DNA of 64,000 bases from NCBI GenBank assembly GCA_017470935.1, contig JAFUXG010000007.1:30654-94653 (forward strand), in the 5' to 3' direction. How positions within the stretch are numbered: the first letter of the stretch is position 1; each line of letters begins with the position of its first letter. Of this stretch, positions 4,971 to 63,740 are shown in pieces. This stretch comes from Lachnospiraceae bacterium. GTDB lineage: Bacteria > Bacillota > Clostridia > Lachnospirales > Lachnospiraceae. The notes under the pieces are model-generated. The model worked only from the letters and a program-made list of their open reading frames with translations. It was not told where the DNA came from and ran no database searches. Made by a program: the position numbers and the translations under genes.

Positions 4971-5003
4971 ATATTTTTATTTTATTAACCTTTCATAATT
5001 TCT

Positions 5004-5059: not shown

Positions 5060-5102
5060 CAATGTATATATATATCATCCAACGGGATATCCCTTACAAT
5101 TC

Positions 5103-45476: not shown

Positions 45477-45917
45477 TTAAAATTTCTTTTCCATGGTAAA
45501 AATATTCTTACCATTCATGTATTCATACAAAACACTGTCCATGCTCTTTTTTACCATATAGATACCCAGGCCCCCAAGGCCCCTTTCCTCAGCAGAAAGG
45601 GTTACATCCGGATCATCCTTTGCAAGCGGATCATAAGGTATTCCATTGTCGGTAAGCGTAATCCTTACACATTTCCCTGATTCTTCCTCATCATCTGATT
45701 CATATATCTGTATCTCTGTCGTTACATCACCAGTGTTTCCGATATATGCATAATGACATACATTGATAAACATCTCCTCTAAAGCAATGGCAGACATATT
45801 CAGTGCCTTCATTGGAGCTTCGTTTTTTTCCATCAGCTCATTAAGCTTCATCTGTACCTTTGGTAAATTATCATCCACAGCAGAACATGTGATGATTTCA
45901 TTATCCTTTAATATCAT
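45477..45917 (-). CDS. RsbW-like anti-sigma/serine kinase ATPase (HATPase_c)
   Basis: 146 residues of the GHKL fold: N-box ALEEMFINVCHYAYIG, G1-like box ITLTDNGIPYDPLAKDDP, and GLGGLGIYMVKKSMDSV. Proteins of this type phosphorylate a STAS protein and sequester a partner, classically a sigma factor. The start codon directly follows the TAG stop of the phosphatase gene, with AAGGAGG upstream, so the two are made together. A STAS protein for it is encoded at 60976-61278. No sigma factor gene is present in the window. Confidence 0.88.
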   Translation of the reverse strand: MILKDNEIITCSAVDDNLPKVQMKLNELMEKNEAPMKALNMSAIALEEMFINVCHYAYIGNTGDVTTEIQIYESDDEEESGKCVRITLTDNGIPYDPLAKDDPDVTLSAEERGLGGLGIYMVKKSMDSVLYEYMNGKNIFTMEKKF

Positions 45918-47636
45918 CTATACCTCCTTATCTGCTCCATGAAATTCTAATGCAAGCATTGTGATGTCGTCAAACTGCTGCGCCTCTCCTACAAACGTAT
46001 CAATATCCTCCTTTACATTTCTAAGAAGCTCTTCGGGTCGGGCAGCCGGATTTCTGTTTAATGCATCCATCATTCTCTCTGTCCCGAAAAGTGTATCTTC
46101 TCCATCCGTTGCCTCAGGCACACCGTCCGTATATACGAACAGACTGTCTCCCGGATGAAGTTCAAATTCATGCTCCCTAAACCTAATTCCCTCCATCGTT
46201 GCAACTGCGGGAGAATGGCGGTATTTAATAAGCTCATAATAACCTTCCGCACTCCGAAGGGCAGGATGTTCATGTCCTGCATTGGCTGCAAGTCCTTTCC
46301 CGGTACTTATCTGCAATATGGCAAGCCATACCGTAACGAACAGTTCTGCCTCGTTGCCCTGGCACAGCGTATCATTTACCTGCATAAGCACCTTTGCAGG
46401 GGAATACTCACCCATCTGCGCGTGGTTTTTAATAAGGGTTTTTGCAATTACCATGAATAGTGCCGCCGGAACCCCCTTACCCGATACGTCAGCCATTACA
46501 AGCGCAAGGTGGTCATCGTCGATCAGGAAAAAGTCATAGAAATCTCCGCCCACTTCTCTAGCCGGTGTCATCGTTGCATACAAGTCAAATTCCTTCCTAT
46601 CTGGAAATGCGGGGAAAATTCCCGGAAGCATATCCGCCTGTATCTGAGTTGCTACCGAAAGCTCTGCTCCGATACGCTCCTTTTCGGCTGTCACTCTGGT
46701 CAGATTTTCAATATAATCCCGTATTCCCGCCTCCATCGCATAGATGCTCTCCCCAAGGGTTTGCAGCTCGTCATGTGTATTTACAGTCAGAAGCTTTTCT
46801 GATAGCGAAATCTCTCTTGAGGCATCTGCCTCCGACAGCTCATTTTTCACAAAATGCCCGGCCTCGTCCGACACCATACGTATCGGTTTTATCAGGGTCC
46901 TCATCTGCAGCTTCACATAAATGTAGATAAACAGCGCAGATAACAGTGCCGACACCAAGAGGCTCACAAATACAAAATGCCGAAGCTGGTTAAGAAGTGT
47001 CTCCATGCGCAGCACCACGGAATATGCCACTCGCGGCTCTCCCTCACCGCAGCTTACCGGCAGAAATGATTGTATGAAATATCCTTCCTCTCTTTTGTTG
47101 ATAAGATGTGCTGTCGGCTGCTCACCCGTCAGAAGTGCCTCCTTCATATAGGGCATCATACGCGGTGCAAGAGGTGCCGGATCTCCTAAAGAAAAATCAT
47201 ATGTCGGATCATCAAAGCTGTCCACTATGATATAAAATGGTGATCTTTTCCCATCCGGGTCAGCGATATAGTCATCCACCTCATCCTCTATCATCCCCAC
47301 CACGAAGAAATCAGCCGCGCCGAATCTATCCCTCGTGTTATCCATACCCACATCAAGCCTTAAGAAGCGCTCATTTGACAGAAGGTAGTCAACCTCCTCC
47401 TCATCCGCCTCACCAAGATACACATCCCTTGCAATACGCGAGATCGTGTTCATCTCCTCCTCGCTTACGGTGGAGGCAATGGATGAAGCAAGCTGATAAC
47501 CCATACGCTCATACTGTTCTATAATGCTTCTCCTATATAAAAAACCTCCGATACCAACAAGTACAATCGTATTCAGGATTCCGAAGAGTACAAAGCTTAA
47601 TATGAATTTTTTTGTAAGACTCTTTCGTTTTACCAT
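45918..47636 (-). CDS. Membrane PP2C/SpoIIE (RsbU-type) phosphatase with sensor and HAMP
   Basis: 572 residues from the ATG reading MVKRKSLTKKF (GAGG six bases upstream). A membrane span (FILSFVLFGILNTIVLVGIGGFLY) precedes an extracellular sensor region of about 175 residues, a second span (FVFVSLLVSALLSALFIYIYV), a HAMP-like stretch and a coiled coil. The SpoIIE domain carries VGGDFYDFFLID, MADVSGKGVPAALFM, NAGHEHPAL, FVYTDGVPEATD and QFDDITMLAL, so its metal ligands are complete. It should dephosphorylate the STAS protein in response to an outside signal. Confidence 0.92.
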   Translation of the reverse strand: MVKRKSLTKKFILSFVLFGILNTIVLVGIGGFLYRRSIIEQYERMGYQLASSIASTVSEEEMNTISRIARDVYLGEADEEEVDYLLSNERFLRLDVGMDNTRDRFGAADFFVVGMIEDEVDDYIADPDGKRSPFYIIVDSFDDPTYDFSLGDPAPLAPRMMPYMKEALLTGEQPTAHLINKREEGYFIQSFLPVSCGEGEPRVAYSVVLRMETLLNQLRHFVFVSLLVSALLSALFIYIYVKLQMRTLIKPIRMVSDEAGHFVKNELSEADASREISLSEKLLTVNTHDELQTLGESIYAMEAGIRDYIENLTRVTAEKERIGAELSVATQIQADMLPGIFPAFPDRKEFDLYATMTPAREVGGDFYDFFLIDDDHLALVMADVSGKGVPAALFMVIAKTLIKNHAQMGEYSPAKVLMQVNDTLCQGNEAELFVTVWLAILQISTGKGLAANAGHEHPALRSAEGYYELIKYRHSPAVATMEGIRFREHEFELHPGDSLFVYTDGVPEATDGEDTLFGTERMMDALNRNPAARPEELLRNVKEDIDTFVGEAQQFDDITMLALEFHGADKEV

Positions 47637-47683
47637 ATCAGTCCTCAAGCCTCCCTCTTATGTAGTGTATTACGTATATAAAT

Positions 47684-48493
47684 TCAATAATAGTCATTCC
47701 ATTCTTTTCTTGTAATAAAATGCGGTTTCAAACCATTACTGATACTGTCAGCACATAAGCTTATGATATGATCATCTGCCAAAAATGTTCTATACATAAG
47801 CTCCTTACCATGAAAGATAATGCGCTCATTATCATAGTCGATATTAACATCATCATTGTCAAAAACAGACAGACCTATTCCCACCTTCTTTGCAAATGCC
47901 TCACGTATCGTCCATATGCGGTAAAACTGAACAAGCTTCTTTGAAAGAGCTGTTGATGTAATTTGTCTCTTTTTGACAGACAAAGACACTTCAAAATTAT
48001 CAGTATCAATAGACGATTCAAGCAACCTCTTATCAATCTTTGTCAGATAACTTTCAAATTCTGTTATATCTATGTCACAAATCTTCTCCACATCAATACC
48101 CAAAGATTTATCAGACTTAGCATACACGATCATCTCTCCGCTATGGGAAAGGGAAAAATGGATATCCGGATACTCCTCCACATATGGCTTTCCGTATTCA
48201 TTTTTCACAATATTATACATTCTCATAGAGTCATCTAAGGAATGATGGTCAGAATGCAGGAATTCATCCAACTGAGGATTGAGCAGTCCTCTTTTTGCAA
48301 GCTCTGCTTCCACCCCACGTCTTATCAACAATGCTCCCACAGCTGAGCGTATTCTGTCCTCCTGCCTTATAAATCTTTGCGATTTGACTCTATCCTCCTC
48401 CGGCAGGCAGGCAAGGATATGCTCATACTGTTCTGCCAGAGGAAGTCTTCTCATGTCAGCAATATATATACTTATTCCCATAAGCTTGATCAT
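47684..48493 (-). CDS. 4'-phosphopantetheinyl transferase, Sfp type
   Basis: 269 residues. Motifs: NEYGKPYVEEYPDIHFSLSHSGEMIVYA, SLGIDVEKICDID with the metal-binding Asp and Glu, and FYRIWTIREAFAKKVGIGL in place of the usual W-x-x-K-E-A. It attaches the phosphopantetheine arm to the three carrier domains of the NRPS, whose stop lies seven bases upstream. A second ATG four codons later (MGISIYIAD) is an alternative start. Confidence 0.92.
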   Translation of the reverse strand: MIKLMGISIYIADMRRLPLAEQYEHILACLPEEDRVKSQRFIRQEDRIRSAVGALLIRRGVEAELAKRGLLNPQLDEFLHSDHHSLDDSMRMYNIVKNEYGKPYVEEYPDIHFSLSHSGEMIVYAKSDKSLGIDVEKICDIDITEFESYLTKIDKRLLESSIDTDNFEVSLSVKKRQITSTALSKKLVQFYRIWTIREAFAKKVGIGLSVFDNDDVNIDYDNERIIFHGKELMYRTFLADDHIISLCADSISNGLKPHFITRKEWNDYY

Positions 48494-48499
48494 CCTATC

Positions 48500-51400
48500 T
48501 CAATCATCCAATGCTCCATCGAAGAATCCAAGAGTGATAAGTGATTCCATTGTGAGCTTAAGATATCTCTCATCTGTAAGCGGCCAGCGGTAGCCCAGAT
48601 GGTAAAGTACATTCTTTGTAAATGTATGATCCTCAGCAACATAGGAGCGCACAGTGTCGGTATCCGCTGAGAGATAACTGATAAGACCTGATACGAGCAT
48701 ATTCTTATTCTCGTCCTGAAGTGCCTCGGTAAGCCTATTTCCAAACTCCTTATCACTTACCACCTCCACAGGTATATCTGCCATATTCATGACTGCAATA
48801 ATATCTCCCATTTCAATCCAGTGACCGTTGACTGCATGGAACACCGTGAACTTGTCCGATGTCTTTGCCAATGCAACAACTGCCTCAGCCACAAGATCTA
48901 TAGGCGAGAACTCCACAGGTCTTGCCATCTCACTTACGGGGTATGCACCTATCACAGCGTAGCCTCTTAGGTTTCTCATAAAGCCGCTGGTAATGGCATT
49001 TGCCTGAAACTCTCCATCACTGTCACGGCTCATAAGATTGCCCACACGGATTATCTTTGCACGAAGCTTACCCTTTGCAATGGATTTAAGGACTGCCTCC
49101 TCCGCATCATACTTAGAGCGCACATACTGGTTAGACAGATCCTGTCCGAAGTACAGCATATCCTCCTTCATCACCGTGGTATCAGGAAGGAAATGATCAA
49201 CATTTTCTCCTGCCACTGATACGGTTGATATCTGAATAAGCAAAGCCTTCTTTTCTTCACAAAGCTCTACAAGATTCTTAACACCTGTCACATTGACGCG
49301 GGTAAGTATATCGTCCTTTGCAAAATGCTTAACACATGCTGCACAGTTAATGACTGTATCAAATGAAAGCTCCTTCTGGGCAAGGACGATATCCCTGTCT
49401 GTGATATCACCGTCCACAACCTCTATTCTTCCATCCTCGAACAGCTCATCATATGAATCATCAAAATAGAATACAAGCATGGATTTCAGTCTTATCTCCG
49501 CTGACTTTGCACGTCCTTTTCTTATAAGGCAAATGATCTTGCCCTGCTCCTTCTCGATAAGATGATGCAGCACATGTATTCCTAAGAAGCCTGTTGCACC
49601 TGTAAGAAGAATATCTCCAAGCTCGCCGGTTTCTATTTCGTCAATATAGCTCATTGTATTGTATTTTAATACCTGTCTAATCTCATCATCCTCAAGGTCA
49701 TTAATCTGCTTTCTGCAAAGGGAAGTTAAGCCTGCTATCTCCGTCTCTTTATTAGCATCTGTTCCGTTGCTATTACTGCTATGTTCTTTCCCTGTATCTG
49801 CGCTGCTGCCGCTAATATGCTCTTTCTTTGTATCTGCACCGTTAATATGCTTTTCCATTGCTGCCACAGTGGGATATGCAAACACATCCTTGTATGCGAT
49901 GGGAAGACCCTTCACCATTGCACTCATGGCGACCTTAGAGGCCAGCATTGAAGTTCCCCCTGCCTCGAAGAAGTCCTCATCAATTCCAATTTCTTCTACT
50001 CCAAGGGCATGGGCAAACATTTCGCAGAGCTGCCTTTGCAGATCATTCTCTGCTTTCCTTCCGGAAACTGTCTTTTTCTTATCTGCCGGCTTTGGCAGTG
50101 CTTTCTTATTCACCTTGCCATTGACCGTAAGAGGAAGCTCCTCCAGATATACATATACGCCCGGTACCATATATGCAGTAAGAGTTTTCCTTAAGTGTTC
50201 AGATAATGATGCCTCATCTACAGGGTGCTTTGCCACATAGTAGCCCACAAGATATTTGCCATCTCCCTCACCAAGAACCATGACCACACTTCTCTCAATT
50301 CCCGGATATGTATTCATGGTATTTTCTATACCGTCAAGCTCAACACGGAGACCTCTGATCTTAACCTGATTGTCATTACGTCCACAGTGCATGATCTGTC
50401 CATTATTATTAAAGTAGGCAATATCACCGCTTCTATATGCAGGGAGCTTCTTATCATTGTCACTTAAGGTTATATACACTTCTTTGGTCTTTTCCGGCAT
50501 TCCGATATAGCCTGCCCCAACGCAGTCACCGGCGATAACAAGCTCACCGCGCATGTATTTCGGAAGGATATTACCAAAGCGGTCTCTTATATAGAATCTG
50601 GTATTACTGCTTGGTCCTCCGATGGTAACATAGCTTCCGTCAAGCTCTCCTATGCTGACAGACACACATGTTTCGGTAGGCCCGTATGAGTTATAAATGA
50701 TACCCTTAAAGCCTGCACCTTTAAGCTTTTCATACATTCCCTTAGGAAATGGCTCAGCACCTAAGATCACCGCCTTAAGCTGTTCCCATATGCCGCCCTC
50801 TGACTGCACATCTAGAATTGAAAGCATATATGACGGTGTACATTTCATCATGTCCACACCGGTCTTCTTCATAGTATCTAACAGCAGCATCGGATTATGT
50901 ATCTCATCATCCGTTGCCATAACAACCGTCTTGCCATGATAAAGAGGCATCATTTCCTCAATTATTGATACGTCAAAGGTAATAGCCGCAAGGGCGAGGA
51001 ATACAGTGGAATTATCCACATAAGCATGTGCCAGCGTATTCTTATCATTGTAGGATAAGAGATTACGGAGATTCTTATGAGTGATCTCCACACCCTTAGG
51101 ATTACCTGTAGAGCCTGAGGTGTATATGCAGTATGCCGGATCATCCTCCCTAAGCTTAAGCTTAGCAGGCATATTGTCTGATACATCTGAGGCATATACA
51201 GCTTCGATATCGATAATCTCTGTAATACCATCAAACAAAGCCTTACGTTCCGCATATAATTCCTTCGTTGTTATGACCGAGGCAAGACCTGCATCTTCAA
51301 TAATAAATGATATTCTGTCATCCGGATAGTCAGGCTCTAAGCTGACAAAGGCAGCTCCTGCCTTCATAATACCCTGTCTTACGGCATACACATCCTCCGT

Positions 51401-54400
51401 TCGTTCCATATAAAGTCCTACACGTTTTCCTCTTCCGATACCCTTGTCTATAAGGGTATTGGCAATCCTGTTAGCTCTGCTGTTGAGCTCTTTATATGTT
51501 ATACTAACACTGCCGCTTCCGGATATTACGGCAGTCTTATCAGCCCACTTTGCCGCTGCCTTTTCCATAAGATACGGCGCAAGGTCTGATTCTACCACTG
51601 CATCCGTTGAATTAAATCCCTTAAGCTCATCCTTCATCTTATCTGTCACAAAGGAAATGTCAGACATACGCTCAGAGACCGGCATCCGGCTTACAGCATG
51701 ATCAAGGCTTTCCTTCATAGTCCTGATATAATCATCTGAATAATGTGCCCTGTCATATTCAAAGCTATAATGTATGTTATCCCCCTGGATAAATATATTG
51801 ACATTAAGGGGAGCCTTGGCTGCTCCAAGCTCAAGGGCTATCATGGAAGCAGGTCTGCCGCAGAAGGTATCAAAGGTGAAATCGTCCCCCTGGTAAGCAA
51901 ACATGACATCCGCATTAACACCCATCTGGCGGCTTACCTCTGCAAACGAGTACAGATCTCTCGCCTGGGTATCCGTAAGCTGTATTCCCATATCCTTCAC
52001 ATGGCCGGTGACAGTCTCCCCTGCCTTAGTGCCTGCTACAATAGGAATTGTCTTAACTAACATAGCCACCGTATCCATGAGCCTTGAATCGGAACGTCCG
52101 TTATATATACCCGCAAACACCACACTTTCAGTGTTAAGATATGCATTTAGCATATGACCAAATACTGCCGAGAAGAAGGCATTCATTGAAAGACCGTTCT
52201 TATCACAGAATTCCCTGACCTCACCTGCACTGATATAGGATCCGTCAGACTCGTACATACCTGCACCCTCAGCCTGTCTGCCATCTGATACATTATCTGT
52301 TATGTCTCCTGCCAAACAATCTGAATTATTACTAGCCGTACCATCTATATTATTCCCTGCTGTACCATCAGCAATATCTCCAACAGGAAGCGACTGGGTC
52401 TCCGCCTCATCTAACAGTCTCTCATAATATCTCTTTGTCTCTTCTAACTTCTCTGCCGTACGGATATGCTGCTCATTTAAAACCACCTCATAACCGGTGT
52501 ATTCTTCTGCTGCAAGCTCTTCGCCACTGTAAGCCTTAGAGATATCATTTAAGAATATGCTCATGGATGTACCATCTGAGATAATATGATGCATCTCTAT
52601 GAACAGATACCTCTTATCAGCCTCTATTATCTTGATCCTGTATAGCTTTCCTCCGATAAGCTTGAAGGGTTTAACAAGTTCATCCTTAATGTCCTCAATG
52701 GATGGAGCAGTGATCACCTCAACTGATGCTTCATCAAAGGAATAATCTGCATCCATGCGTCTCATACGCACATCTCCATCATCATTTAAGAACAGTCTTG
52801 TCTTGATAAATGGATGTGCATCAACTGCTGCCACAATTGCCTTCTTAAGCCTGTCGGTATCAAGCTCCTTATCAATCTCAAGAAGAATAGGAATGTTATA
52901 TACACATGTATCAGGGTCAGCAACACATTCTACATATACTCCCTCCTGTGTCTTAGTAAGGTCATAAACAGGTCTGACCGAAAAGTCTGCCTCATGGGAT
53001 TTTCCGCCCTTCTTAACACTGAGGATATAAGCCTCAAGCTTTTCTATGGTATTACACTCCTTAAGGTCTCTTGTGGTAAATACCATATCAAAGGTCTTAG
53101 AAAGGCTAGCATTAAGCTTTATGGAACCTATTGATGAAAGACCTGCCTCTGCAAAATCCGTAGTAATACCAAAATCCGTATGTCCCACAACATCAGCCAT
53201 GCAGTCAAATATCTGCTTCTGCATATCAGTCTTTGGCTCTATCTTCTCAATCTGCTGGCGCTCCGGCTTAGGAAGAGCCTTCTTGTTGACCTTCTGATTC
53301 TGATTAAGAGGTATGGCATCTATCTGCATGGTAACTGCAGGTACCATATACGGCGGCTTCTCACTTCTGATAAAGTCATTAAGTGCCGATATATCAATGG
53401 TATCATCTGACACAATATATGCGGCTATATATTTCTCTCCTGTTGCATCATCCTCAAATGCCTGTACTGTAGCATCATTGATCCCCGGAAATTCTCTGAT
53501 GATTCCCTCAACCTCGGTAAGCTCAATACGGAAGCCTCTGACCTTCACCTGACCGTCATTTCTTCCGATAAAGTCCACCTCTCCGTTTGCTAAAAGCCTT
53601 ACCACATCACCGCTTCTGTATGCGCGCTCGTATCCGGGTTCATCAGTAAACTCGTTCTTAATAAATACCTTCTCTGTCAGATCATCCCTGTTAAGATATC
53701 CGGCAGAAACACCTGCGCCGCTAATGAGCATTTCACCCGGTACAAGTGCAGGAAGCTGCCTTCCATATTCATCTCTTACATATACCTTATAATTAGCCAG
53801 AGGCTTTCCTATAGGTACACGGTCATATAATCTGTCCATACGCTTTGCCGTTGTCAATATGGTACACTCTGTAGGTCCGTACACATTATAAAATGGCGGT
53901 GCCGAATCAATAGGGGACAGTGGAACCAGCTTCTCTCCACCGGTTGATAGAAACTTGAGCGACCTGTGGCTTACCATTGTATAGAACTGCCGTCCCACCT
54001 GTGTTGTCATAAAGCTGTGGGTTATAGCATTTTCATTGAAATAGGTTTCCAGCGCAAGAAGATCAAGTCTTATCTCCTCCTCTATGATATATACTGATGC
54101 ACCGGTGGTAAGGGCAGGATACAGATCCATCATATCAGCATCAAAACCATAGCTTGCGTATGCAGCGACCTTAGATGTCTCATCCAGCTCATAGAATTCC
54201 CTGTACCAGCCGCAGAAGTTAGCCAGATTCCGATGCAGTATCTTAACGCCCTTGGGCATACCCGTTGAGCCGGAGGTATATAAGAGAATGAAAAGACTAT
54301 CCTTATCAGGTCCATTCGTAACATGCTCTCCAGGCGGGAGCTTATCTATATCATCAATAAGAAGCACCTCACCCCTGTATTCCGGCACACTTCCAAGCAG

Positions 54401-57400
54401 GCTCTCATCCGCAATAAGATATGCTGCATCTGCATCCTGCATCATAAATGTAAGACGCTCACTGGGGTACGATGGGTCAAGTGGCTGATAAGCAGCACCT
54501 GTCTTCAATACTCCAAGAGAAGCTGTTACCATATATGTGGAACGTGGAATCAATATGGAAACAACCTTACCTGCACCAACTCCCTTATTTCTTAAGAAGC
54601 CTGCAATACGGTCAGATATCTCATCAACCTCTCTGTATGACAGCATTTCACCCTTATAAAATACAGCATTATTATCAGGATGAAGCTTAACCATACGCTT
54701 AAACAATGTAACAATATCCGTGATCTCATAATCACGCTCTGTAGCGTTATGTGCCTCCTGCTCTGCTATATCCTCTGCTCCCACTAAGGTTATATCGCAA
54801 AGCCTCTTATCCTCCAAAAGACCGTATACGATACGGGCATATAATGCAGTTATACGCCTTATGGTATCCTCTGTATATAATCCTGCATCATATTCAAACC
54901 GAAGCTGATAATCGCCTCCCGGCTGCTTAAGTACATGAAGTGTCAGCTTATCCATTGCATCCTGAGGCTTATATATCTCAAGCGGTATGTATCTTCCATC
55001 CATCATTGCACCTGAGAGCATATCCCCCTGATATACAAAGCTGTAGTCAGGACGGATATGATATTCTGATAAAAGCTCGGAAAATGCCGCCCCGTCATGA
55101 GCCACACACTCAAAGAACCTCTTCTGCATATCCTTAAGATAGTCCACACACATGCTTTCCTCGTTGACATCAGCAAGCACCGGAATATTGTGTACCATCA
55201 TTCCAAATGTATCTGCAAGAAGTGAATCATCACGTCCGTTCTCCCCTGCAAATAATAGTACCTTTTTCTGCCCTGAAAGCAGTCGCAGCATATACGCATA
55301 CGCACCTATGAAGACAGTGCTTTCGGTCACTCCATAATGCCTGACAACATCCGTTATATGAGCCTGTATATCTTCATTTAAAGAAGAAAGCAAATTAGTA
55401 TAAAGACCTGATCTTCCTGAAAGCTCACTTAAGGAAGGATTATCATCACCGTATACCTCTGTATCACCATCCATTCCATCTAACATATTTCTGTAGAAAT
55501 CATTATCAGCCTTCTTGACCTCTGCAAGATTCTCATCGGCATATCTTGCAAGACTAAGGTTAGTGACCTTCTCGGTCCGGAGCTCACCACCCTCATAGAC
55601 ACGGCTGATATTGTCAACAAGCAGGGACATGGATGTTCCGTCACACAATATATGATGTATATCTGAGATAAGGAATAAGCCCTCCGGATTCTTATATATA
55701 CATGCCCTTATAAGTGGAGCCTTTGCAAGATCATGGGGAGCGATGAAATCTCTTGCAAGCTTATCCCTGTCTGTCTCCTCTGTCTCTATATATGTGGCAC
55801 TGATCGAAACCGAGGAATCATATACAAATGAGGGCACGCCGTCTATCTCCTCAACATGGCATTTAAGGATCGGATAGCTGTTGATCACCGTTTCACATGC
55901 AGACCTTAGCCTGTCACATGCATCATCAGGATTACCCTCATCAGGCAGGAACAATCCCACCACATTATTATATATAGTCGCCCTGTCAGGATCACTGCTG
56001 TCCAGATATATGGATATCTGGCTCTCCGTCAACGGAAATGCCTCATTATCCTCCGGCTTCTTATCTGCATAATCTGAAAGTACCGCACTTTTCTTATTAT
56101 CTGTCTTTATGTATTGTGCAAGCTTCCTTGGTGTATGTGCAGCAAAGATATCTGACTTGGTTATACCATAATGAGCAAGACGATTCTGCAGCACAAGTGT
56201 CTTAATGGAATCTCCTCCTAAGGAGAAGAAATCGTCATCGATTCCCACACGGGAAATACCTAATATTTCCCCATATACCTGGCATATGCTTTCCTGATCC
56301 CTAGTCTCAGGTGCAGCATACTCACTGCTGTATTCAGAAAGCTCCGGTGCCTTAAGTGCCTTACGGTCAAGCTTTCCGTTAGCATTCACCGGCAATTTAT
56401 CAAGCCTCACACAATATGCGGGAATCATATACTCCGGCAGGCTTTTTGAAAGCTCATTTTTAATAAGCTCTTCATCAAGATCTTTTCCATCCTTAGTTAC
56501 ATAGTATGCAGTAATGATAGTCTGTCCGTCCGGTCTGTTAAAGTCCTTGACGCAGGCTTCATTTATACTGTCCATTCCTGCTATTGCCGCCTCAATCTCT
56601 CCCGGCTCCACGCGCTGCCCGTTGATCTTGATCATCCAGTCCTTACGATTTACATAGAGTATATCTCCTGAGGGAAGCCTTTTCACCAGATCGCCTGTGT
56701 GCAGGAGGGTTTCATATCCATCCTCCTCATAAAATGGGTTTTTAACAAAGGTCTCTGCCGTCTGTTCGTCAAGATTTCTATAACCCACTGCAAGATCACC
56801 TGCAATGCACAGTTCACCCTGTTTAACTATATTTCCATTTTCATCAACAACATAGAATACTTCATCGCCTGCCGGTCTGCCGATTGGCGTATTATCATAA
56901 TTTCTGTCAAGGAGGAACATCAACACGCCGCTTGCGGTCTCTGACATACCGTATCCGTTGACTATCTGGAAATCCTCTGTATATAGATTGGATACTCTTT
57001 CACTTCCAGTCAGTGCACGACGCAAAGATGTCCCTTTCTTTTTAAAATATTTCAGAACCTTCGGTGCAATGTAGGTCATTGTTATTCCATATCTGTCAAT
57101 ACACCCGGCAAGCCCGTCAGGATCACCCCGCAGCTCCTCAGGAATCAACACGGTTGTCACTCCATGCATAAATGCCGAAAAGACATCCTGCATATGTACA
57201 ACAAAATAGAACGGAGCATTACTTCCATAGATATCATTGTTAGCAAAATTCATAATCTTTTCATATCTTTCAATGGCTTTACTGAGTCCGATATGGTTAT
57301 GCATAACCCCCTTAGGTCTGCCTGTAGAGCCTGATGTATATATGATAAGTGACAGGTCATCAGGTGAAAGATCAGGAAACTCTTCTACCTCATTATAGGA

Positions 57401-57745
57401 ATCAGCATCCTCTATAAAATCCTCCTTCAGGACCATTTTCGCAGCCGAATCCTCTTTGATCATGTTAATACGTTCCAAAGGGTATGTGTCGGCAAGCGGT
57501 ACATAGCATATTCCACTTAATAGACAGGCATGAGCCACTGCTATATAATGTACATCATGCGGCATTGCCAGCACGCATACATCACCCTTTTTCACACCTG
57601 ATGAGGCAAGCTTTGCTGCAAGCCTTCTCACATAGCTGTCAAATTCTCTGTAGGTATACTTAACACCGATTGTCGGATCCATGTATGCCGTTTTATCAGC
57701 ATATTCACCCACTACATTATTATATAAATCACTGAATAACCCCAT
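48500..57745 (-). CDS. Trimodular non-ribosomal peptide synthetase, A-T-C-A-T-C-A-T-R
   Basis: 3081 residues from the ATG with AGGAGG ten bases upstream. Order: A1 (~10-470), T1 (LGGDSIKT, Ser ~511), C1 (HHILCDGTS, ~697), A2 (~1025-1500), T2 (AGLSSIGS, ~1536), C2 (HHIISDGTS, ~1718), A3 (~2060-2570), T3 (AGGTSML, ~2597) and a terminal reductase (LLTGATGFLG ~2716, YVRSK ~2875). Both C domains have the catalytic HHxxxDG. There is no thioesterase, so the product should leave as an aldehyde or alcohol. A2 and A3 keep the amino-binding Asp (GFDADMMD, TFDVSIIE), while A1 has YFVVHMQD with Val there, suggesting a non-amino starter acid. Low-complexity inserts occur in C2 and before R. PPTase gene immediately downstream. 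Confidence 0.95.
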   Translation of the reverse strand: MGLFSDLYNNVVGEYADKTAYMDPTIGVKYTYREFDSYVRRLAAKLASSGVKKGDVCVLAMPHDVHYIAVAHACLLSGICYVPLADTYPLERINMIKEDSAAKMVLKEDFIEDADSYNEVEEFPDLSPDDLSLIIYTSGSTGRPKGVMHNHIGLSKAIERYEKIMNFANNDIYGSNAPFYFVVHMQDVFSAFMHGVTTVLIPEELRGDPDGLAGCIDRYGITMTYIAPKVLKYFKKKGTSLRRALTGSERVSNLYTEDFQIVNGYGMSETASGVLMFLLDRNYDNTPIGRPAGDEVFYVVDENGNIVKQGELCIAGDLAVGYRNLDEQTAETFVKNPFYEEDGYETLLHTGDLVKRLPSGDILYVNRKDWMIKINGQRVEPGEIEAAIAGMDSINEACVKDFNRPDGQTIITAYYVTKDGKDLDEELIKNELSKSLPEYMIPAYCVRLDKLPVNANGKLDRKALKAPELSEYSSEYAAPETRDQESICQVYGEILGISRVGIDDDFFSLGGDSIKTLVLQNRLAHYGITKSDIFAAHTPRKLAQYIKTDNKKSAVLSDYADKKPEDNEAFPLTESQISIYLDSSDPDRATIYNNVVGLFLPDEGNPDDACDRLRSACETVINSYPILKCHVEEIDGVPSFVYDSSVSISATYIETEETDRDKLARDFIAPHDLAKAPLIRACIYKNPEGLFLISDIHHILCDGTSMSLLVDNISRVYEGGELRTEKVTNLSLARYADENLAEVKKADNDFYRNMLDGMDGDTEVYGDDNPSLSELSGRSGLYTNLLSSLNEDIQAHITDVVRHYGVTESTVFIGAYAYMLRLLSGQKKVLLFAGENGRDDSLLADTFGMMVHNIPVLADVNEESMCVDYLKDMQKRFFECVAHDGAAFSELLSEYHIRPDYSFVYQGDMLSGAMMDGRYIPLEIYKPQDAMDKLTLHVLKQPGGDYQLRFEYDAGLYTEDTIRRITALYARIVYGLLEDKRLCDITLVGAEDIAEQEAHNATERDYEITDIVTLFKRMVKLHPDNNAVFYKGEMLSYREVDEISDRIAGFLRNKGVGAGKVVSILIPRSTYMVTASLGVLKTGAAYQPLDPSYPSERLTFMMQDADAAYLIADESLLGSVPEYRGEVLLIDDIDKLPPGEHVTNGPDKDSLFILLYTSGSTGMPKGVKILHRNLANFCGWYREFYELDETSKVAAYASYGFDADMMDLYPALTTGASVYIIEEEIRLDLLALETYFNENAITHSFMTTQVGRQFYTMVSHRSLKFLSTGGEKLVPLSPIDSAPPFYNVYGPTECTILTTAKRMDRLYDRVPIGKPLANYKVYVRDEYGRQLPALVPGEMLISGAGVSAGYLNRDDLTEKVFIKNEFTDEPGYERAYRSGDVVRLLANGEVDFIGRNDGQVKVRGFRIELTEVEGIIREFPGINDATVQAFEDDATGEKYIAAYIVSDDTIDISALNDFIRSEKPPYMVPAVTMQIDAIPLNQNQKVNKKALPKPERQQIEKIEPKTDMQKQIFDCMADVVGHTDFGITTDFAEAGLSSIGSIKLNASLSKTFDMVFTTRDLKECNTIEKLEAYILSVKKGGKSHEADFSVRPVYDLTKTQEGVYVECVADPDTCVYNIPILLEIDKELDTDRLKKAIVAAVDAHPFIKTRLFLNDDGDVRMRRMDADYSFDEASVEVITAPSIEDIKDELVKPFKLIGGKLYRIKIIEADKRYLFIEMHHIISDGTSMSIFLNDISKAYSGEELAAEEYTGYEVVLNEQHIRTAEKLEETKRYYERLLDEAETQSLPVGDIADGTAGNNIDGTASNNSDCLAGDITDNVSDGRQAEGAGMYESDGSYISAGEVREFCDKNGLSMNAFFSAVFGHMLNAYLNTESVVFAGIYNGRSDSRLMDTVAMLVKTIPIVAGTKAGETVTGHVKDMGIQLTDTQARDLYSFAEVSRQMGVNADVMFAYQGDDFTFDTFCGRPASMIALELGAAKAPLNVNIFIQGDNIHYSFEYDRAHYSDDYIRTMKESLDHAVSRMPVSERMSDISFVTDKMKDELKGFNSTDAVVESDLAPYLMEKAAAKWADKTAVISGSGSVSITYKELNSRANRIANTLIDKGIGRGKRVGLYMERTEDVYAVRQGIMKAGAAFVSLEPDYPDDRISFIIEDAGLASVITTKELYAERKALFDGITEIIDIEAVYASDVSDNMPAKLKLREDDPAYCIYTSGSTGNPKGVEITHKNLRNLLSYNDKNTLAHAYVDNSTVFLALAAITFDVSIIEEMMPLYHGKTVVMATDDEIHNPMLLLDTMKKTGVDMMKCTPSYMLSILDVQSEGGIWEQLKAVILGAEPFPKGMYEKLKGAGFKGIIYNSYGPTETCVSVSIGELDGSYVTIGGPSSNTRFYIRDRFGNILPKYMRGELVIAGDCVGAGYIGMPEKTKEVYITLSDNDKKLPAYRSGDIAYFNNNGQIMHCGRNDNQVKIRGLRVELDGIENTMNTYPGIERSVVMVLGEGDGKYLVGYYVAKHPVDEASLSEHLRKTLTAYMVPGVYVYLEELPLTVNGKVNKKALPKPADKKKTVSGRKAENDLQRQLCEMFAHALGVEEIGIDEDFFEAGGTSMLASKVAMSAMVKGLPIAYKDVFAYPTVAAMEKHINGADTKKEHISGSSADTGKEHSSNSNGTDANKETEIAGLTSLCRKQINDLEDDEIRQVLKYNTMSYIDEIETGELGDILLTGATGFLGIHVLHHLIEKEQGKIICLIRKGRAKSAEIRLKSMLVFYFDDSYDELFEDGRIEVVDGDITDRDIVLAQKELSFDTVINCAACVKHFAKDDILTRVNVTGVKNLVELCEEKKALLIQISTVSVAGENVDHFLPDTTVMKEDMLYFGQDLSNQYVRSKYDAEEAVLKSIAKGKLRAKIIRVGNLMSRDSDGEFQANAITSGFMRNLRGYAVIGAYPVSEMARPVEFSPIDLVAEAVVALAKTSDKFTVFHAVNGHWIEMGDIIAVMNMADIPVEVVSDKEFGNRLTEALQDENKNMLVSGLISYLSADTDTVRSYVAEDHTFTKNVLYHLGYRWPLTDERYLKLTMESLITLGFFDGALDD
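49745..49862 (-). repeat. Degenerate tandem repeat in the T3-R linker of the NRPS
   Basis: The linker reads as three related units, NGADTKKEHISGS, SADTGKEHSSNSNG and TDANKE, encoded by diverged copies of a ~39-45 base unit. A comparable Asn/Asp/Gly-rich insert (DIADGTAGNNIDGTASNNSD) lies in C2 near 52280-52390. Confidence 0.6.
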
Positions 57746-57898
57746 TGTATAATAACCTCCTGTTGTCTTCATTGATTCTGTCGCAATTTATGGTCTATAA
57801 CCGCTCATCTGCTTGGATGCTTTACTTTCCAACACCTCAGCATATATTCCATTATTCCGAACAAGATAAGTATAAGAATATATGTTACTAAATAAACC

Positions 57899-59638
57899 TT
57901 ATACTGTTATAATAGTGTTATTAAGATCTATCGCCCTTATATACGAAATATCCTTTGCCACCTTCTTGGCAAGCTCAATTCCGTGGATACTATATTCCTC
58001 GTCATCATATTCATAGGTCGTTGGATCAAATGGTACCCCATTATCCCTAAGACGCAGCATTAGTCTGTCCTCCTCTATGGTCAGACATATATCGATCCAA
58101 TCAGACTGCTTTCCTCCATGTTTAACAATGTTGGCAGCCATCTCCTCCGCAGCCACAGCAAGCAGATTCGCCTTACTCTTTTCAATATTATTGCTTATGC
58201 AAAAATCGCTGACCTCCTGGGGAACCTTTGCAACCTCTGACATATCTGCATGTATGGTAAAGTCATGGCATAATCCCGGATTTTTGTCAGGAATAAGAAG
58301 CATGCTCTCCCCAGGGTATTTGATCCTTCTGTATATAAATGAGGCAGTAACCGTAAGAAGCTCTGACATAACAAATGCCAGGGCAAGTCCTCCAAAGCCG
58401 TCTCCTCCTGCACTCTGACCTAATAGAATTCCCACAAGTGTTACCGGGATTAGAAATACACCGTTCTCAAGGGTTGTAATAAGCGTTGCAAGACCTGACT
58501 TCTGCACTGAGCCGTAATACTGCATACCAAAGTAATTCAACAGATTGAATGGCATTGAGAATACATAGACTCTAAGTACCATTACCATAATAGCTGAAAG
58601 CTCTGTATCATTAATACCGAACAGCCTTACAAAAGCACCTGTAAATATGAAAACAACCACCATCAGCACGGCAGTAAGCACTGCACCATAGGTAAGCACC
58701 TTCTTACACAGCACGTTAATTCCATAATAGTCCTTCTCTCCGTAAAGTATCCCTGCAATATTGGGAATAACGCTTATAACACCTCCGATAAACATTGCAA
58801 GTATAAGCTCCGTATTATTACATACCGTGAATACTGCCATGCCCGGTTCTCCAAGAAAGGAAAGTATGATCCCATTCATAAGAAGCATCTTTATCATTGT
58901 TGTTATAAGGTAAGTGAAATAAGGCATACCCGTAGTAACTATACTCTTTATCATTTCCATTGTGATATGTGGAGCAGTAAAGGATATCATACGTTTCCTT
59001 GAACGTATGTATGGCACTGCAACCACAAAGCCTACCGCAAAGCCCAGCATGGTGGAAAGAGCTGCACCCTTTACTCCAAGAGAAGTATATTTTAAGAATA
59101 TATAGTCGAATATAAGATTAACAGAATTGGAGATTATAAAATACAGACTTGCAAGCTGTGGATGAGAATCGTTAGCGAAGAAGCTTGACATCAAAAGTCC
59201 TATTCCAAGTACAGGTGCACCTGCAAGGCACACAAATACATAAGACTCCACATCATCAGCCAAGACGCCTCCCCCGGACAGAAGTCCTGCAATGGGAGCC
59301 GAAGCTATAAATGATGCCACAAAGAATATGACACTGAATATCATTGCCAGAATAAATGATGCAGTGAACACCTGTCCCGCTTCCTTTTTCTTACGTTTGC
59401 CAAGCAGTATTCCCGCTGCAATGGCACCGCCGTTTCCAAGAAAATATCCCGGGATCTGAATAAAGGAAAGCACAGGAAGCGACAGCGTTACTGCTGACAT
59501 TGCCTCTGTACCCAGCAGGTTACCCACAAGGATAGTGTCCACAATATTACCTAGCTGCAGTGCCAGCTTCATCATAATCGCAGGAAGCATATATTGTCTT
59601 ATCTTAACATCCAAAAGTTCATGATTTCTTTCGTGCAT
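57899..59638 (-). CDS. MATE-family efflux transporter fused to an RsbW-like ATPase domain
   Basis: 579 residues. Residues ~10-445 are a MATE transporter with twelve hydrophobic segments (QLGNIVDTILVGNLLG, IQIPGYFLGNGGAIAAG, GVKGAALSTMLGFAVGF). The C-terminal ~130 residues are an HATPase_c domain of the anti-sigma kinase type: N-box AVAAEEMAANIVKHGG, G1 box LMLRLRDNGVPFDPTTY and HGIELAKKVAKDISYIRA. The domain faces the cytosol, where the STAS protein of the same operon could bind or be phosphorylated. It lies between the DUF3089 gene and the NRPS gene in the same direction, so I infer that it exports the NRPS product under partner-switching control. Confidence 0.9.
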   Translation of the reverse strand: MHERNHELLDVKIRQYMLPAIMMKLALQLGNIVDTILVGNLLGTEAMSAVTLSLPVLSFIQIPGYFLGNGGAIAAGILLGKRKKKEAGQVFTASFILAMIFSVIFFVASFIASAPIAGLLSGGGVLADDVESYVFVCLAGAPVLGIGLLMSSFFANDSHPQLASLYFIISNSVNLIFDYIFLKYTSLGVKGAALSTMLGFAVGFVVAVPYIRSRKRMISFTAPHITMEMIKSIVTTGMPYFTYLITTMIKMLLMNGIILSFLGEPGMAVFTVCNNTELILAMFIGGVISVIPNIAGILYGEKDYYGINVLCKKVLTYGAVLTAVLMVVVFIFTGAFVRLFGINDTELSAIMVMVLRVYVFSMPFNLLNYFGMQYYGSVQKSGLATLITTLENGVFLIPVTLVGILLGQSAGGDGFGGLALAFVMSELLTVTASFIYRRIKYPGESMLLIPDKNPGLCHDFTIHADMSEVAKVPQEVSDFCISNNIEKSKANLLAVAAEEMAANIVKHGGKQSDWIDICLTIEEDRLMLRLRDNGVPFDPTTYEYDDEEYSIHGIELAKKVAKDISYIRAIDLNNTIITV

Positions 59639-59671
59639 CTGCGCTCTCCTTTATACTTACTTCCCCATTAT

Positions 59672-60883
59672 CTACTCTGCATTAAGATAAGCATCTATCC
59701 TTGTCTGGACATTTTCGCGGATATTATCCCAGTATCCTGCATAATCCATATTGTGGAAGCTCTGTGGTCCGAAGGGATTCGCCACATCACCCATAAGTGC
59801 TCCTACCTGAATATAGCCGTCATATGTAGTACATACAACAACGCCCCTTTCAGTATCCACCTGTGCATCAAGAAGTCCGGGTTTATCCACCTGATAATCA
59901 ACCGTTACACCCTGCTCATTATTGACGGGAATCCGGTCTCCCAGATTCTCCGATGCCTCCGCCTTAGTATCATCACGCTTCCAGTTAATTGGATTGATTG
60001 CTATAGAATTGTCCATTACCACCGCATTATGCTCATTCTTGTTGCCGGGTCCCTCCACATTCCATGAGACTATAACGCCTGTATCATCAGCACCCTCTGC
60101 AAACTTAAGGGCAGGATTAGTCTCAAGATCATCAGTTGTTATAGAAAATCCAAGCACATAAGCAGCTACCATTCTGTCAAGATAATCTGTGTGCTCCTTG
60201 AAATAATCCCTAAGGGCGATCTTAAGCATCATTGACCCTTGAGAATGTCCTGCAAGAATAAATGGTCTTCCCTGATTATAATTTTCAAAATAGTAATCAA
60301 GTGCGGCATATACATCCGTACGCTGCTCCTGATACTGAAACTCCATGAATTCCTGTGGATTCTTGCCAATAACACTCATAAGATTAGTCTGTCTGTAAAA
60401 TGGCTCATACAGATTAGTCAGATCCTCGAATATGACAGCCTGATTACTGTAATTAGCTGCCACGCCAGCCCGCAACATCTCATCATCGATCGGTACAATC
60501 GAAGGTGCATCCTCTGCCGGATTAATATATACTGTCGGATAGATGAAGAATGTATCCACCGGCTTATCCGTATTATCGGGAAGATGCGCCCAGTTGTTCT
60601 CATCAGAATAATCAGTAGGTGTTCCCACAAGGTTAGTTACTTTATAGCCTTCAACATCATCAGATGATGCTTCCTCATCTGATGAAACTTCTTGGGTACC
60701 TTCTCCCGCAGTATCCTCCTCATCAACAGTCTCAGCCGCATTGTCCGAAGTATCCTCCTCCACAACTGCCTCCTCCACAGGCGACAGCTCCGATGTATCA
60801 TCTCCACAGCCTGCCACAGCTAATGCCAGTACAGGCATTGCCATAATTAAAAACGCTCCTTTTTTCATAAATCCTTTTCTCAT
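59672..60883 (-). CDS. DUF3089 lipoprotein, lipase-like alpha/beta hydrolase
   Basis: 403 residues from the ATG reading MRKGFMKKGAF, with AGGAGG nine bases upstream. A lipoprotein signal ends in the lipobox LAVAGC, followed by an acidic low-complexity linker of about 55 residues. The catalytic domain begins NWAHLPDNTDKPVDTFFIYPTVY, the DUF3089 signature, and has the nucleophile elbow ILAGHSQGSMML. It should be anchored to the outer face of the membrane. Between a STAS gene and the exporter gene it may process, release or detoxify the secreted product (inference). Confidence 0.88.
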   Translation of the reverse strand: MRKGFMKKGAFLIMAMPVLALAVAGCGDDTSELSPVEEAVVEEDTSDNAAETVDEEDTAGEGTQEVSSDEEASSDDVEGYKVTNLVGTPTDYSDENNWAHLPDNTDKPVDTFFIYPTVYINPAEDAPSIVPIDDEMLRAGVAANYSNQAVIFEDLTNLYEPFYRQTNLMSVIGKNPQEFMEFQYQEQRTDVYAALDYYFENYNQGRPFILAGHSQGSMMLKIALRDYFKEHTDYLDRMVAAYVLGFSITTDDLETNPALKFAEGADDTGVIVSWNVEGPGNKNEHNAVVMDNSIAINPINWKRDDTKAEASENLGDRIPVNNEQGVTVDYQVDKPGLLDAQVDTERGVVVCTTYDGYIQVGALMGDVANPFGPQSFHNMDYAGYWDNIRENVQTRIDAYLNAE

Positions 60884-60975
60884 AATCCCTTTCCTCCTGT
60901 GATTATTCATTATTATTAAATTAAGTTGAATATTGATAATATCAACAAAACTTTTAATTGAACGCACCTGTACTT

Positions 60976-61278
60976 TTATTCCTCGATATTTAAGATGTCT
61001 ATGAAGCCGGTAACCTCAAAGATTTCCATGACCTCATCATTAGCATTTGTAATCGTCATCTCACCCTGCTTGTTCATTACCTTCTGCGCAGACAGAAGCA
61101 CACGAAGACCTGCGGATGATATATACTCAAGACCCTTAAGGTCAAGTGTAAGCTTAGTTATTCCATCTACAGTGCTTCTAAGCTCTCCCTCTAACTGCGG
61201 TGCACTTATGGTGTCAAGTCTTCCGTCAAGTGCTACAGTAAGGTTAGTTCCTTCTGTTCTTTTTTCAATATTTAACAT
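60976..61278 (-). CDS. STAS-domain anti-sigma factor antagonist (RsbV/SpoIIAA-like)
   Basis: 100 residues, the whole length being one STAS domain: LTVALDGRLDTISAPQLEGELR and LTLDLKGLEYISSAGLRVLLSAQ, where a Ser of the ISSAG loop is the phosphorylation site. It is the natural substrate of the RsbW-like ATPases and of the SpoIIE phosphatase in this locus. AAGGAGA precedes the ATG. It is the first gene after the GHKL/LytTR pair and a 430-base gap that probably holds the operon promoter. Confidence 0.93.
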   Translation of the reverse strand: MLNIEKRTEGTNLTVALDGRLDTISAPQLEGELRSTVDGITKLTLDLKGLEYISSAGLRVLLSAQKVMNKQGEMTITNANDEVMEIFEVTGFIDILNIEE

Positions 61279-61710: not shown

Positions 61711-62997
61711 CTACCTCTTTACAATCCTGACAGCAAACCATTCATCACTGATCTTGAAGTCACATACAGCGTTATTTCTCTCACAGTAAGCAAGCATTGA
61801 TCTTATCCCTATACCATGTCCTTCTTCTCCTGAAGTAGGCACACCATTCTCATCAAGCATAATGCTGCCGCTGTAATGATTGCTCACAGAAAACATAAGC
61901 TGCGGTGACTGAATAGCCTTTACCCTGATAACTCTGTCCTTTGAAGGGAGCTCAGACACTGCATGTATGGCATTCTCGATAGCATTGGCAAATACAAGTG
62001 AAAGCACGGTGGCTTTGTCACTCGGAACATCTGAAATTTCAAGCTGTGCGATAATTTCTATATTCTGTTTCTTCGCTTCTGCAAAATATGCGGTAAACAT
62101 AGCATTAAGTATAGGATTACCACACCATTTAGTGGAAGTATCCTGCTCAATAACGCCTATGTTCTGCTCTATGTAAGATGAGGCTTCATCATAAGAGCCT
62201 TCAGAAAGCATAACTCCAAGGGTAGTCAGTATATGCCGAAGGTCATGCCTATAGATAGTAATATTCTTCTCTGCCTCCTCAGCATGATTAATCTTCTGCT
62301 GCATCATCTCCATCTGCTGCTCCAGATAATGATTTAACTCCTGCTGCTGATAATAGTTATGCTGGCTAAGCAATGTTTTAATACAGTATATGCCTGTAAG
62401 CAGCATCGCTGCAAACACCAGCACCAGAACAGGAATGTCGTGGGGTCTTTTGGATAGAGTGTTGGGAAAGTTGAATACAACAAGCAGTATAAATGTATAT
62501 ATTCCCGATATATATGCGAACATATTCCATCCGGTACGCAGCACATTCATAACTCTCCTGTAAGGCTTTGCAAGATATGATATCATTAAAAACAATGTTA
62601 TGGGAAATGCTATAAGCCGTACCAAAAACATTACGATATAATTGTTGTATGGGGAATAATAGTCTAACAGATTAGATACCTGTATGATGAATATAAAGAT
62701 TCCTGACACAAAGAAATATGTTGAAAATACCCGTCCGTCATGGTAACGGGAAAGGAAAAAGCTCACCGCAATCTGCGGAAGAATATAGAATAGGATTGCA
62801 AGCTGACCGCCACGTTCTGAGCCAAGCAGCAAGTACATTATAACCGTAAGGATAATTATAGGCACATTGAGAAAAGCAGTCATCAAAGCTGCTTTTTTTC
62901 TGGGATAGCGGTATTCATTTAACATAAAGAACATCACTATATGAAATATTATAGAATATGGTGCTGAAAGCAGTTTGAAAACTGTAACACTATCCAT
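61711..62997 (-). CDS. GHKL-type sensor histidine kinase (AgrC-like)
   Basis: 428 residues. The N-terminal ~210 residues are six or seven membrane segments as in AgrC-type peptide or small-molecule receptors. A coiled coil (YYQQQELNHYLEQQMEMMQQKINHAEEAEKN) leads to the phospho-acceptor ITIYRHDLRHILTTL and the ATP-binding part with SLVFANAIENAIHAV and EEGHGIGIRSMLAYCERN. It is 14 bases downstream of its LytTR partner. It probably senses an external signal and controls the NRPS locus; no AgrD-like peptide gene was found nearby. Confidence 0.9.
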   Translation of the reverse strand: MDSVTVFKLLSAPYSIIFHIVMFFMLNEYRYPRKKAALMTAFLNVPIIILTVIMYLLLGSERGGQLAILFYILPQIAVSFFLSRYHDGRVFSTYFFVSGIFIFIIQVSNLLDYYSPYNNYIVMFLVRLIAFPITLFLMISYLAKPYRRVMNVLRTGWNMFAYISGIYTFILLVVFNFPNTLSKRPHDIPVLVLVFAAMLLTGIYCIKTLLSQHNYYQQQELNHYLEQQMEMMQQKINHAEEAEKNITIYRHDLRHILTTLGVMLSEGSYDEASSYIEQNIGVIEQDTSTKWCGNPILNAMFTAYFAEAKKQNIEIIAQLEISDVPSDKATVLSLVFANAIENAIHAVSELPSKDRVIRVKAIQSPQLMFSVSNHYSGSIMLDENGVPTSGEEGHGIGIRSMLAYCERNNAVCDFKISDEWFAVRIVKR

Positions 62998-63011: not shown

Positions 63012-63740
63012 TTAATCCAGAAAGTAATCAATCCATGCCTGATAAAGCTCCTTTGATACCGTTCTTGGCACTGTAAGCTCACTATTATTTGCAAAGGTAA
63101 CTATATTTTTTTCAACTGCACGTATGGCTGACAAATTAACTATGATACTTGCACCGCACCTGAAAAATCTTCCATCTGTATCAAATTCTGCCGTTGCACT
63201 CTTGAAGGACTCAGATATGGTAAGACTGGAAAGTTTTTTTTCATTACAGATAAAGCATATACATCGTTTTTCAAATATAATGCAGTTTATCTCCTGACGG
63301 CTCACATAGTAATCTCCATCCCTTGTGCGAACAAAGAACACGTCATCCATCCGTTTTTGTATACTTCCACTTGCCTCATTAAGAACATCTGCGAATTCGC
63401 CATAATCTACCGGCTTTACAAGATAATGAAATGCCCGTACCTTATAACTTTCCACCGCATATTCTCTGGTAGATGTGAGAAATATTATCGGTGTCTTTTC
63501 TGCCAGACTCCTTGCTTCGCGAAGCTTCTTTGCAAGCGTAATTCCATCCATCTCAGGCATCATAACATCAAGGATGAACATGTCGTATTTTTTCCCGTCA
63601 CAAATGGTATTGCACAATAATTCGCCCTGTTGAAACTCATATACCTTAACTATTTTATTCTGTTCCTTCGCCCATTTATCTATCATTTCATGAAGAGCTT
63701 TAAGTTCATTTGCATCATCATCGCAAACTGCTATATTCAT
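63012..63740 (-). CDS. LytTR-type response regulator (AgrA-like)
   Basis: 242 residues. The receiver domain has VCDDDANELK, the acceptor Asp in MFILDVMMPEMDG, Thr/Ser in IIFLTSTREY and Lys in HYLVKPVDY. The C-terminal LytTR domain follows from about 135 (VFFVRTRDGDYYVSRQEINCI to LTVPRTVSKELYQAWIDYF). AAAGGAGG precedes the ATG. With the GHKL kinase it forms a complete two-component system, and a plausible target is the repeat array at 61650-61702. Confidence 0.93.
   Translation of the reverse strand: MNIAVCDDDANELKALHEMIDKWAKEQNKIVKVYEFQQGELLCNTICDGKKYDMFILDVMMPEMDGITLAKKLREARSLAEKTPIIFLTSTREYAVESYKVRAFHYLVKPVDYGEFADVLNEASGSIQKRMDDVFFVRTRDGDYYVSRQEINCIIFEKRCICFICNEKKLSSLTISESFKSATAEFDTDGRFFRCGASIIVNLSAIRAVEKNIVTFANNSELTVPRTVSKELYQAWIDYFLD

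Follow-up and report, generated by a model that had tools for sequence, protein, structure and literature searches.

A partner-switching gene set without an adjoining sigma factor gene at a reductase-ended NRPS locus of Lachnospiraceae, and its possible action on a MATE–ATPase fusion

What does a partner switch act on when no sigma factor gene lies beside it? The question is raised by a locus in a 64,000-nucleotide stretch from a Lachnospiraceae bacterium (G000:C72:30654-94653; hereafter the window), in which seven co-directional genes on the - strand (61278–45477), assigned by Pfam and by reading of the open reading frames (ORFs), begin with a STAS gene and end with that of an RsbW-type ATPase, and include the genes of a MATE transporter, a nonribosomal peptide synthetase (NRPS), a 4'-phosphopantetheinyl transferase (PPTase) and a membrane SpoIIE-type phosphatase. 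The transporter itself carries at its C-terminus a second RsbW-type ATPase domain (HATPase_c_2 match at residues 463-568). We tentatively propose, with a probability of about 0.42, that the switch operates without a sigma factor on this transporter and is wired to export of the NRPS product.

Switch proteins and their linkage to the fused transporter

The reference partner switches are RsbU/RsbV/RsbW and SpoIIE/SpoIIAA/SpoIIAB of Bacillus subtilis, with which the window has in common a phosphatase, a STAS protein with the matching Ser and a Bergerat-type ATPase, so that all three components of an RsbU/V/W-type module are present. The STAS protein matched 4hyl, RsbV (6m36) and SpoIIAA (1auz) in the PDB, and its Ser55, the second Ser of an ISSAG motif, aligned with the Ser of the RsbV DSTG motif, which we take to be Ser56, the phosphorylated residue. 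In the SpoIIE-type protein, a PP2C domain (residues 377-569) lies C-terminal to a membrane and extracytoplasmic region read from the sequence and thus putative, and the nearest solved structure was 6k4e ('Putative serine phosphatase'), presumably SiaA. The stand-alone ATPase keeps the E/N-box, DNG and GGLG motifs; phmmer found no PDB match for it at E 0.001. Unlike the B. subtilis sets, the window has no adjoining sigma gene and bears the second ATPase domain on the transporter. The lack of a sigma gene, already remarked in a sequence-only reading of this DNA, was found to extend over the whole of the 94.6-kb contig C72, which contains the entire window: the Sigma70_r2 profile gave no match there, against 18 matches (17 over the cut-off) in the assembly of this rumen-type bacterium (3.06 Mb, 75 contigs, 77.75% complete), and a cognate sigma factor was accordingly not found beside the set.

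The MATE–ATPase fusion stayed under the cut-off of NCBIfam TIGR00797 (107.8 of 147.4 bits). Its ATPase domain retains the EE..N and DNG motifs, and the ATP lid has one Gly (HGIE). An AlphaFold2 model of the fusion from three sequences reached a mean predicted local distance difference test score of only 40.5 and was not used.

A search of 397 genomes of the family matched the fusion at E ≤ 1e-40 in 29 (the window's own included), the match spanning the ATPase tail in 25. Thirty-seven fusion stretches were fetched, and their ORFs were scanned with profiles built on the domains of the window itself, for which reason distant switch genes may be missed on both sides of the following comparison; the sample also favours NRPS-linked fusions, because resemblance to the fusion of the window was the criterion of choice. 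As the control, 38 fusions were set against 42 plain MATEs (open frame ≤480 aa) in 39 stretches, all from fusion-bearing genomes, the plain MATEs being hand-picked, and hence non-random, among the matches listed for the 22 of 29 genomes searched. Several neighbourhoods end at contig edges. Within 8 kb, a STAS gene accompanied 14/38 fusions and 0/42 plain MATEs, a SpoIIE gene 13/38 and 1/42, a separate HATPase 10/38 and 0/42, an NRPS 14/38 and 0/42, and a PPTase six and one, respectively. At least one of the STAS, SpoIIE and ATPase genes was present near 21 of the fusions, compared with a single plain MATE.

The linkage was also seen outside the NRPS context. Among 398 genomes of the phylum, 15 matched the fusion at E ≤ 1e-30, seven of them, the window's included, across the ATPase tail. 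Six further full-length fusions, four in three other families and two in family genomes that had missed the E ≤ 1e-40 cut, had in their stretches a SpoIIE ORF in every case (228 aa in L194), a STAS gene in three, a separate ATPase in two and an NRPS in none, which suggests that the link joins pump and switch and does not need the NRPS. A scan of the contigs of named relatives gave two loci with the fusion, both from uncultured Lachnospiraceae (RUG12787 and a red-deer metagenome-assembled genome), and a plasmid collection gave two partial MATE matches and two NRPS matches, with no fusion.

Some of these loci have further neighbours. One NRPS-free fusion (L193) lies beside an MBOAT acyltransferase gene and another (L192) beside what appear by eye to be peptide-export ABC genes, and one large cluster (L037 and L064, G057:C38) contains three MATE-HATPase fusions, two STAS genes, a SpoIIE, an ATPase and a trimodular NRPS with a reductase (R) domain.

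The NRPS lineage associated with the switch

The NRPS contains three AMP-binding, two Condensation and three PP-binding domains and one terminal NAD_binding_4 domain. The last is an R domain of the short-chain dehydrogenase/reductase type, in which the TGxTGFLG and Y-x-x-x-K motifs, of catalytic significance in such domains, could be read from the sequence; its best solved match was 6vtj_A (254 bits), which we take to be a PCP-R (peptidyl carrier protein-reductase) didomain of Methanobrevibacter ruminantium, AusA scoring 138 bits. The aureusimine proteins AusA and AusB were also the best NCBIfam matches of the NRPS (1538.9 of 2500 bits) and the PPTase (59.6 of 225 bits), both under the cut-off. 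Reductase release is shared with AusA, but the window's enzyme has three modules, while AusA has two modules and is not known to have switch genes. Judged by the PheA positions, the first adenylation (A) domain seems to lack the Asp responsible for binding the alpha-amino group, and thus a non-amino-acid starter is possible.

An R-domain search at E ≤ 1e-30 returned 44 stretches in 41 of the 397 genomes, and 43 rows entered the tree, from which same-contig overlaps (L056, L060, L064, L137, L139) and R stretches shorter than 150 aa (G315: L065, L138) were left out. All 18 loci with switch genes or a fusion fell in one clade of 24 (support 98/96), and none of the 19 rows outside it had either; mapped on the tree, this label required 5 changes, compared with an average of 14.0 in shuffles. 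The expectation that homologous loci would keep the STAS, SpoIIE and ATPase genes was borne out in the 13 clade loci that have at least one of them and, as far as the fusion is concerned, in five that have the fusion only (L009, L055, L061, L067, L109); it failed in four with just a long MATE, the tail of which was not read as ATPase by the profiles (L051, L106-L108), and in two with none, on 4-5 kb contigs (L111 and L059, the MATE of the latter running off the contig end). The full set of switch genes is found in a minority of the clade loci and a subset in many, and in two variants (L113, L134) the ATPase is fused to SpoIIE. The confinement to a single clade suggests that the coupling of NRPS and switch is old within one NRPS lineage, and this tree and the plain-MATE control together argue that the linkage is not due to chance.

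Possible targets of the switch

In the mechanism that we propose, the membrane SpoIIE phosphatase would sense an outside cue and dephosphorylate the STAS protein at Ser55, and the stand-alone RsbW-type ATPase would rephosphorylate it. The dephosphorylated STAS protein would then dock on the RsbW-like tail of the MATE pump, the putative exporter of the NRPS product, and raise or lower its activity; the pump would thereby fill the place of the sigma factor in the textbook switch. Where there is no stand-alone ATPase, the pump's own domain might be both kinase and target.

Such a circuit seems to be represented by G168 (93% complete), the NRPS and fusion of which are 69% and 67% identical to those of the window. 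Its genes run in the order STAS, fusion, PaaK-like ligase, NRPS, SpoIIE and CstA, and no separate ATPase gene was found on the contig of the locus, which ends about 0.1 kb past the STAS gene. In the whole assembly, PF13581 matched the fusion with 48.4 bits and, under the cut-off, a 522-aa frame with 26.5 bits; apart from the fused domain, the sole match over the cut-off, no switch ATPase was thus recognised in G168. In G411, assembled as a single 2.9-Mb contig, SpoIIE, fusion and STAS genes likewise stand together with no separate ATPase within 19.9 kb, the tail of this fusion scoring under the Pfam cut-off (21.6 of 27.4 bits).

By analogy, two known systems may serve as precedents for the switch logic. 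In SiaABC of Pseudomonas aeruginosa, a partner switch made up of a PP2C-type phosphatase, a kinase and a target protein works together with a diguanylate cyclase (PMC7647112), and MlaB is a STAS protein that binds the ATPase of an ABC transporter (PMC7367683). SiaABCD resembles the window in the three switch components and differs in its diguanylate cyclase output and in having neither NRPS nor MATE; when 11 proteins of the window's locus were compared with Pfam, none showed a diguanylate cyclase domain, a distant gene not having been sought. MlaFB places a STAS protein on a transporter ATPase as proposed here, but that transporter is an ABC transporter of lipids, and the abstract of the report names no phosphatase or kinase (PMC7367683).

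The sequence-only reading knew of no characterised NRPS pathway run in this way, which has to be corrected as far as the gene set is concerned. In M. ruminantium M1, Leahy et al. (2010) came upon NRPS genes (mru0066-0071, mru0513-0516) that form, like those of the window, one cluster with MatE, serine phosphatases and an anti-sigma factor antagonist, and a third cluster adding a PPTase and an anti-sigma kinase to a serine phosphatase and an antagonist; the roles that they put forward were sensing of the environment, control over NRPS expression, and export (PMC2812497). The components are divided between clusters in the archaeon and united at one locus in the window, and the available text of that account, which proposes control of expression, makes no mention of an ATPase domain on MatE (PMC2812497). 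The gene assembly around an NRPS has therefore been known since 2010, and what appears to be new is the transporter-fused switch. Direct control of NRPS synthesis or export, as suggested in the sequence-only reading, accordingly gains from the recurrent linkage and the G168 set and loses its claim to be unprecedented. The main text of a review of STAS proteins does not contain the words 'MATE', 'nonribosomal' or 'SiaC' (PMC8256260), and no MATE-fused switch ATPase, direct gating or STAS-gated NRPS exporter appeared among the literature matches listed, a search that covered titles and the beginnings of abstracts, with most subscription journals outside its coverage.

The main rival is a canonical switch with an unlinked output, in which the stand-alone ATPase would hold a sigma factor or another regulator encoded elsewhere, the set would control transcription of the NRPS operon, and the MATE tail would be a second STAS site or a sink. 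We consider this less likely than action on the pump. On its side, the N, G1 and G2 boxes of the stand-alone ATPase are intact, the Sigma70_r2 matches in the window's genome include SigE, SigG and a factor of the FliA/WhiG type, and control of expression is what was proposed for M. ruminantium (PMC2812497). It sits less well with the contig-wide lack of a sigma match and with G168, where only the fusion exceeds the PF13581 cut-off and the three Sigma70_r2 matches are one of FliA/WhiG type and two SigI-like; this sigma list is incomplete, since RpoD is not among the matches. Rather improbable in our view is that the pump serves as sensor instead of target: flux of the product or membrane energy through the MATE part would modulate the phosphorylation of STAS by the tail, and the output would be the stand-alone ATPase or some other partner. 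The 38 fused domains keep the N-box Glu in 38/38, the N-box Asn in 28/38 and the G1 Asp in 31/38, a retention that also speaks for action on the pump, and many may hence still bind ATP; on the other hand, almost all of them have fewer glycines in the ATP lid, several domains are degenerate, and in G168 no other switch ATPase was found that could be the output. Least probable appears an arrangement in which the cluster is in truth regulated by the GHKL/LytTR pair, encoded on the same strand 432 bp upstream, and the switch genes, linked by descent only, serve another process. Several NRPS-R stretches that do not belong to the switch clade (e.g., L120-L124, L126) do contain receiver-type regulators. 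Such regulators are, however, no commoner near fusions: the receiver profile, which comprises receiver plus LytTR and also matches plain receivers, hit 10/38 fusion and 10/39 plain-MATE stretches, the GHKL profile 3/38 and 3/39, and neither any of the six further fusion stretches, and the MATE-HATPase fusion would be left unexplained.

Several observations weigh against a switch acting on the pump. The double glycine in the ATP lid of stand-alone ATPases is missing in nearly all fused domains, the exceptions being those of L058 and L065 with GGIA, and the N-box Asn is lost in 10/38. The idea that the fused domain degenerates where a separate ATPase exists was dropped, because loss of the N-box Asn or G1 Asp (5/13 vs 5/25, p 0.26) does not track the separate ATPase. 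In a mirror-tree comparison of 16 loci, STAS distances correlated with those of the fused domain (r 0.21, permutation p 0.05) and of the MATE part (0.32), and once the MATE part was taken into account STAS and the fused domain no longer co-diverged (partial r -0.19, p 0.89). No switch gene lies within 8 kb of 17/38 fusions, a radius that misses genes beyond a 9-kb NRPS. Moreover, the window's genome has on contig G000:C32 a second SpoIIE gene adjoining that of a 230-aa ATPase (L098 4748-7246), and, about 16 kb from this pair, a second STAS gene (L099 3034-3333), with which cross-talk could occur. Finally, an ATPase gene of G168 could be lost from view at the contig edge or in the missing 7% of the genome; the edge led us to lower the probability that the switch acts on the pump from 0.45 to the 0.42 given above, and to trim likewise that of the extension considered next.

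In this extension, partner switching would directly gate MATE-HATPase fusions as a class and, in the same manner, biosynthetic STAS-AMP-ligase enzymes. Synthesis and export of small molecules would then both be under sigma-free, post-translational control, and a transporter domain could be the sole kinase; we regard this as doubtful. STAS-AMP-ligase fusions were found in two genomes, directly behind a SpoIIE gene in G168 (G168:C64) and, in G233 (G233:C213), at a distance of 5.2 kb, with intervening genes, from a MATE-HATPase fusion. They show that STAS domains are joined to metabolic enzymes, a point that also favours action on the pump. STAS domains were furthermore joined to APH-like kinases in L040, where an ATPase domain is present as well, in L069 (both by Pfam) and in L205 (by eye). 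In L202 the partner is an LPG-synthase-like protein, and in L203 it is what by eye is a methyltransferase-like part, beside a SpoIIE gene.

Locus layout and biological meaning

As summarized in Table 1, Pfam and ORF reading confirmed that the STAS protein, MATE-ATPase fusion, NRPS, PPTase, SpoIIE and RsbW-like ATPase are encoded in one direction, and added genes missing from the first listing, namely a DUF3089 gene between STAS and fusion and the GHKL/LytTR pair upstream. The order on the - strand is LytTR regulator, GHKL kinase, STAS, DUF3089, MATE fusion, NRPS, PPTase, SpoIIE and HATPase_c_2.

Table 1. Features of the locus in window coordinates, with the evidence for each assignment
Feature	Position	Strand	Evidence
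LytTR response regulator, possible separate regulator	63012..63740	-	Pfam
GHKL sensor kinase, possible separate regulator	61711..62997	-	Pfam
STAS protein, 100 aa, RsbV/SpoIIAA-like	60976..61278	-	Pfam STAS 63.5 bits
DUF3089 protein with lipobox-like signal, probable exported lipoprotein hydrolase	59672..60967	-	Pfam PF11288 146 bits
MATE-HATPase_c_2 fusion	57899..59638	-	MatE 96.1 bits (two stretches; Pfam cut-off 24.9); HATPase_c_2 38.6 bits; both over cut-off
NRPS, 3090 aa, A-T-C-A-T-C-A-T-R (T, thiolation; C, condensation), AusA-like, terminal thioester reductase	48500..57772	-	Pfam domains
4'-Phosphopantetheinyl transferase	47684..48493	-	top NCBIfam match AusB, under cut-off
Membrane SpoIIE-type PP2C phosphatase, N-terminal extracytoplasmic part read from sequence	45918..47648	-	Pfam 155 bits
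Stand-alone RsbW/SpoIIAB-type ATPase, 146 aa	45477..45917	-	HATPase_c_2; N-, G1- and G2-box intact

All seven genes, STAS through the stand-alone ATPase, would appear to form a single predicted transcription unit. The gaps measure 33 bases between DUF3089 and fusion, 126 between fusion and NRPS, 6 between NRPS and PPTase, 35 between PPTase and SpoIIE, and 0 between SpoIIE and ATPase. The terminator scan of the window (19 found vs 10.7 expected) placed none on the - strand in the gaps between these genes, which is weak evidence only, as is the promoter scan (62 found vs 53.9 expected). The 416-nt leader had a fold z of -1.79, and no Rfam family was found in the window at the gathering cut-off. 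The likelier start of the DUF3089 gene is the ATG at 60883, behind AGGAGG, the ORF itself opening at 60967; the lipobox and hydrolase assignments, read from the sequence, are presumptive. DUF3089 relatives also adjoin the fusion in L066 and the NRPS-R gene in L113, and one is present in a control stretch (L158).

Two small ORFs flank the unit on the same strand. That of 114 aa at 45117-45461 has no Pfam match, resembles by eye the C-terminal part of a CstA-like protein and looks like the remnant of a CstA neighbour; in L053, a whole CstA gene (4063-5529, Pfam CstA) follows SpoIIE. The other, of 32 aa with a CPEC motif (61333-61431), lies between the sensor kinase and STAS genes and is either a signal peptide gene or due to chance.

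If the switch does act on the pump, a phosphorylated STAS protein would control the export of secondary metabolites at the transporter itself in Firmicutes of the gut and rumen, with no sigma factor involved, and this branch of MATE transporters would gain a dedicated regulatory input. The same mechanism would offer a reading for the uncharacterised switch genes reported in 2010 around archaeal NRPS genes, and would provide a handle for activating silent NRPS clusters of the gut.

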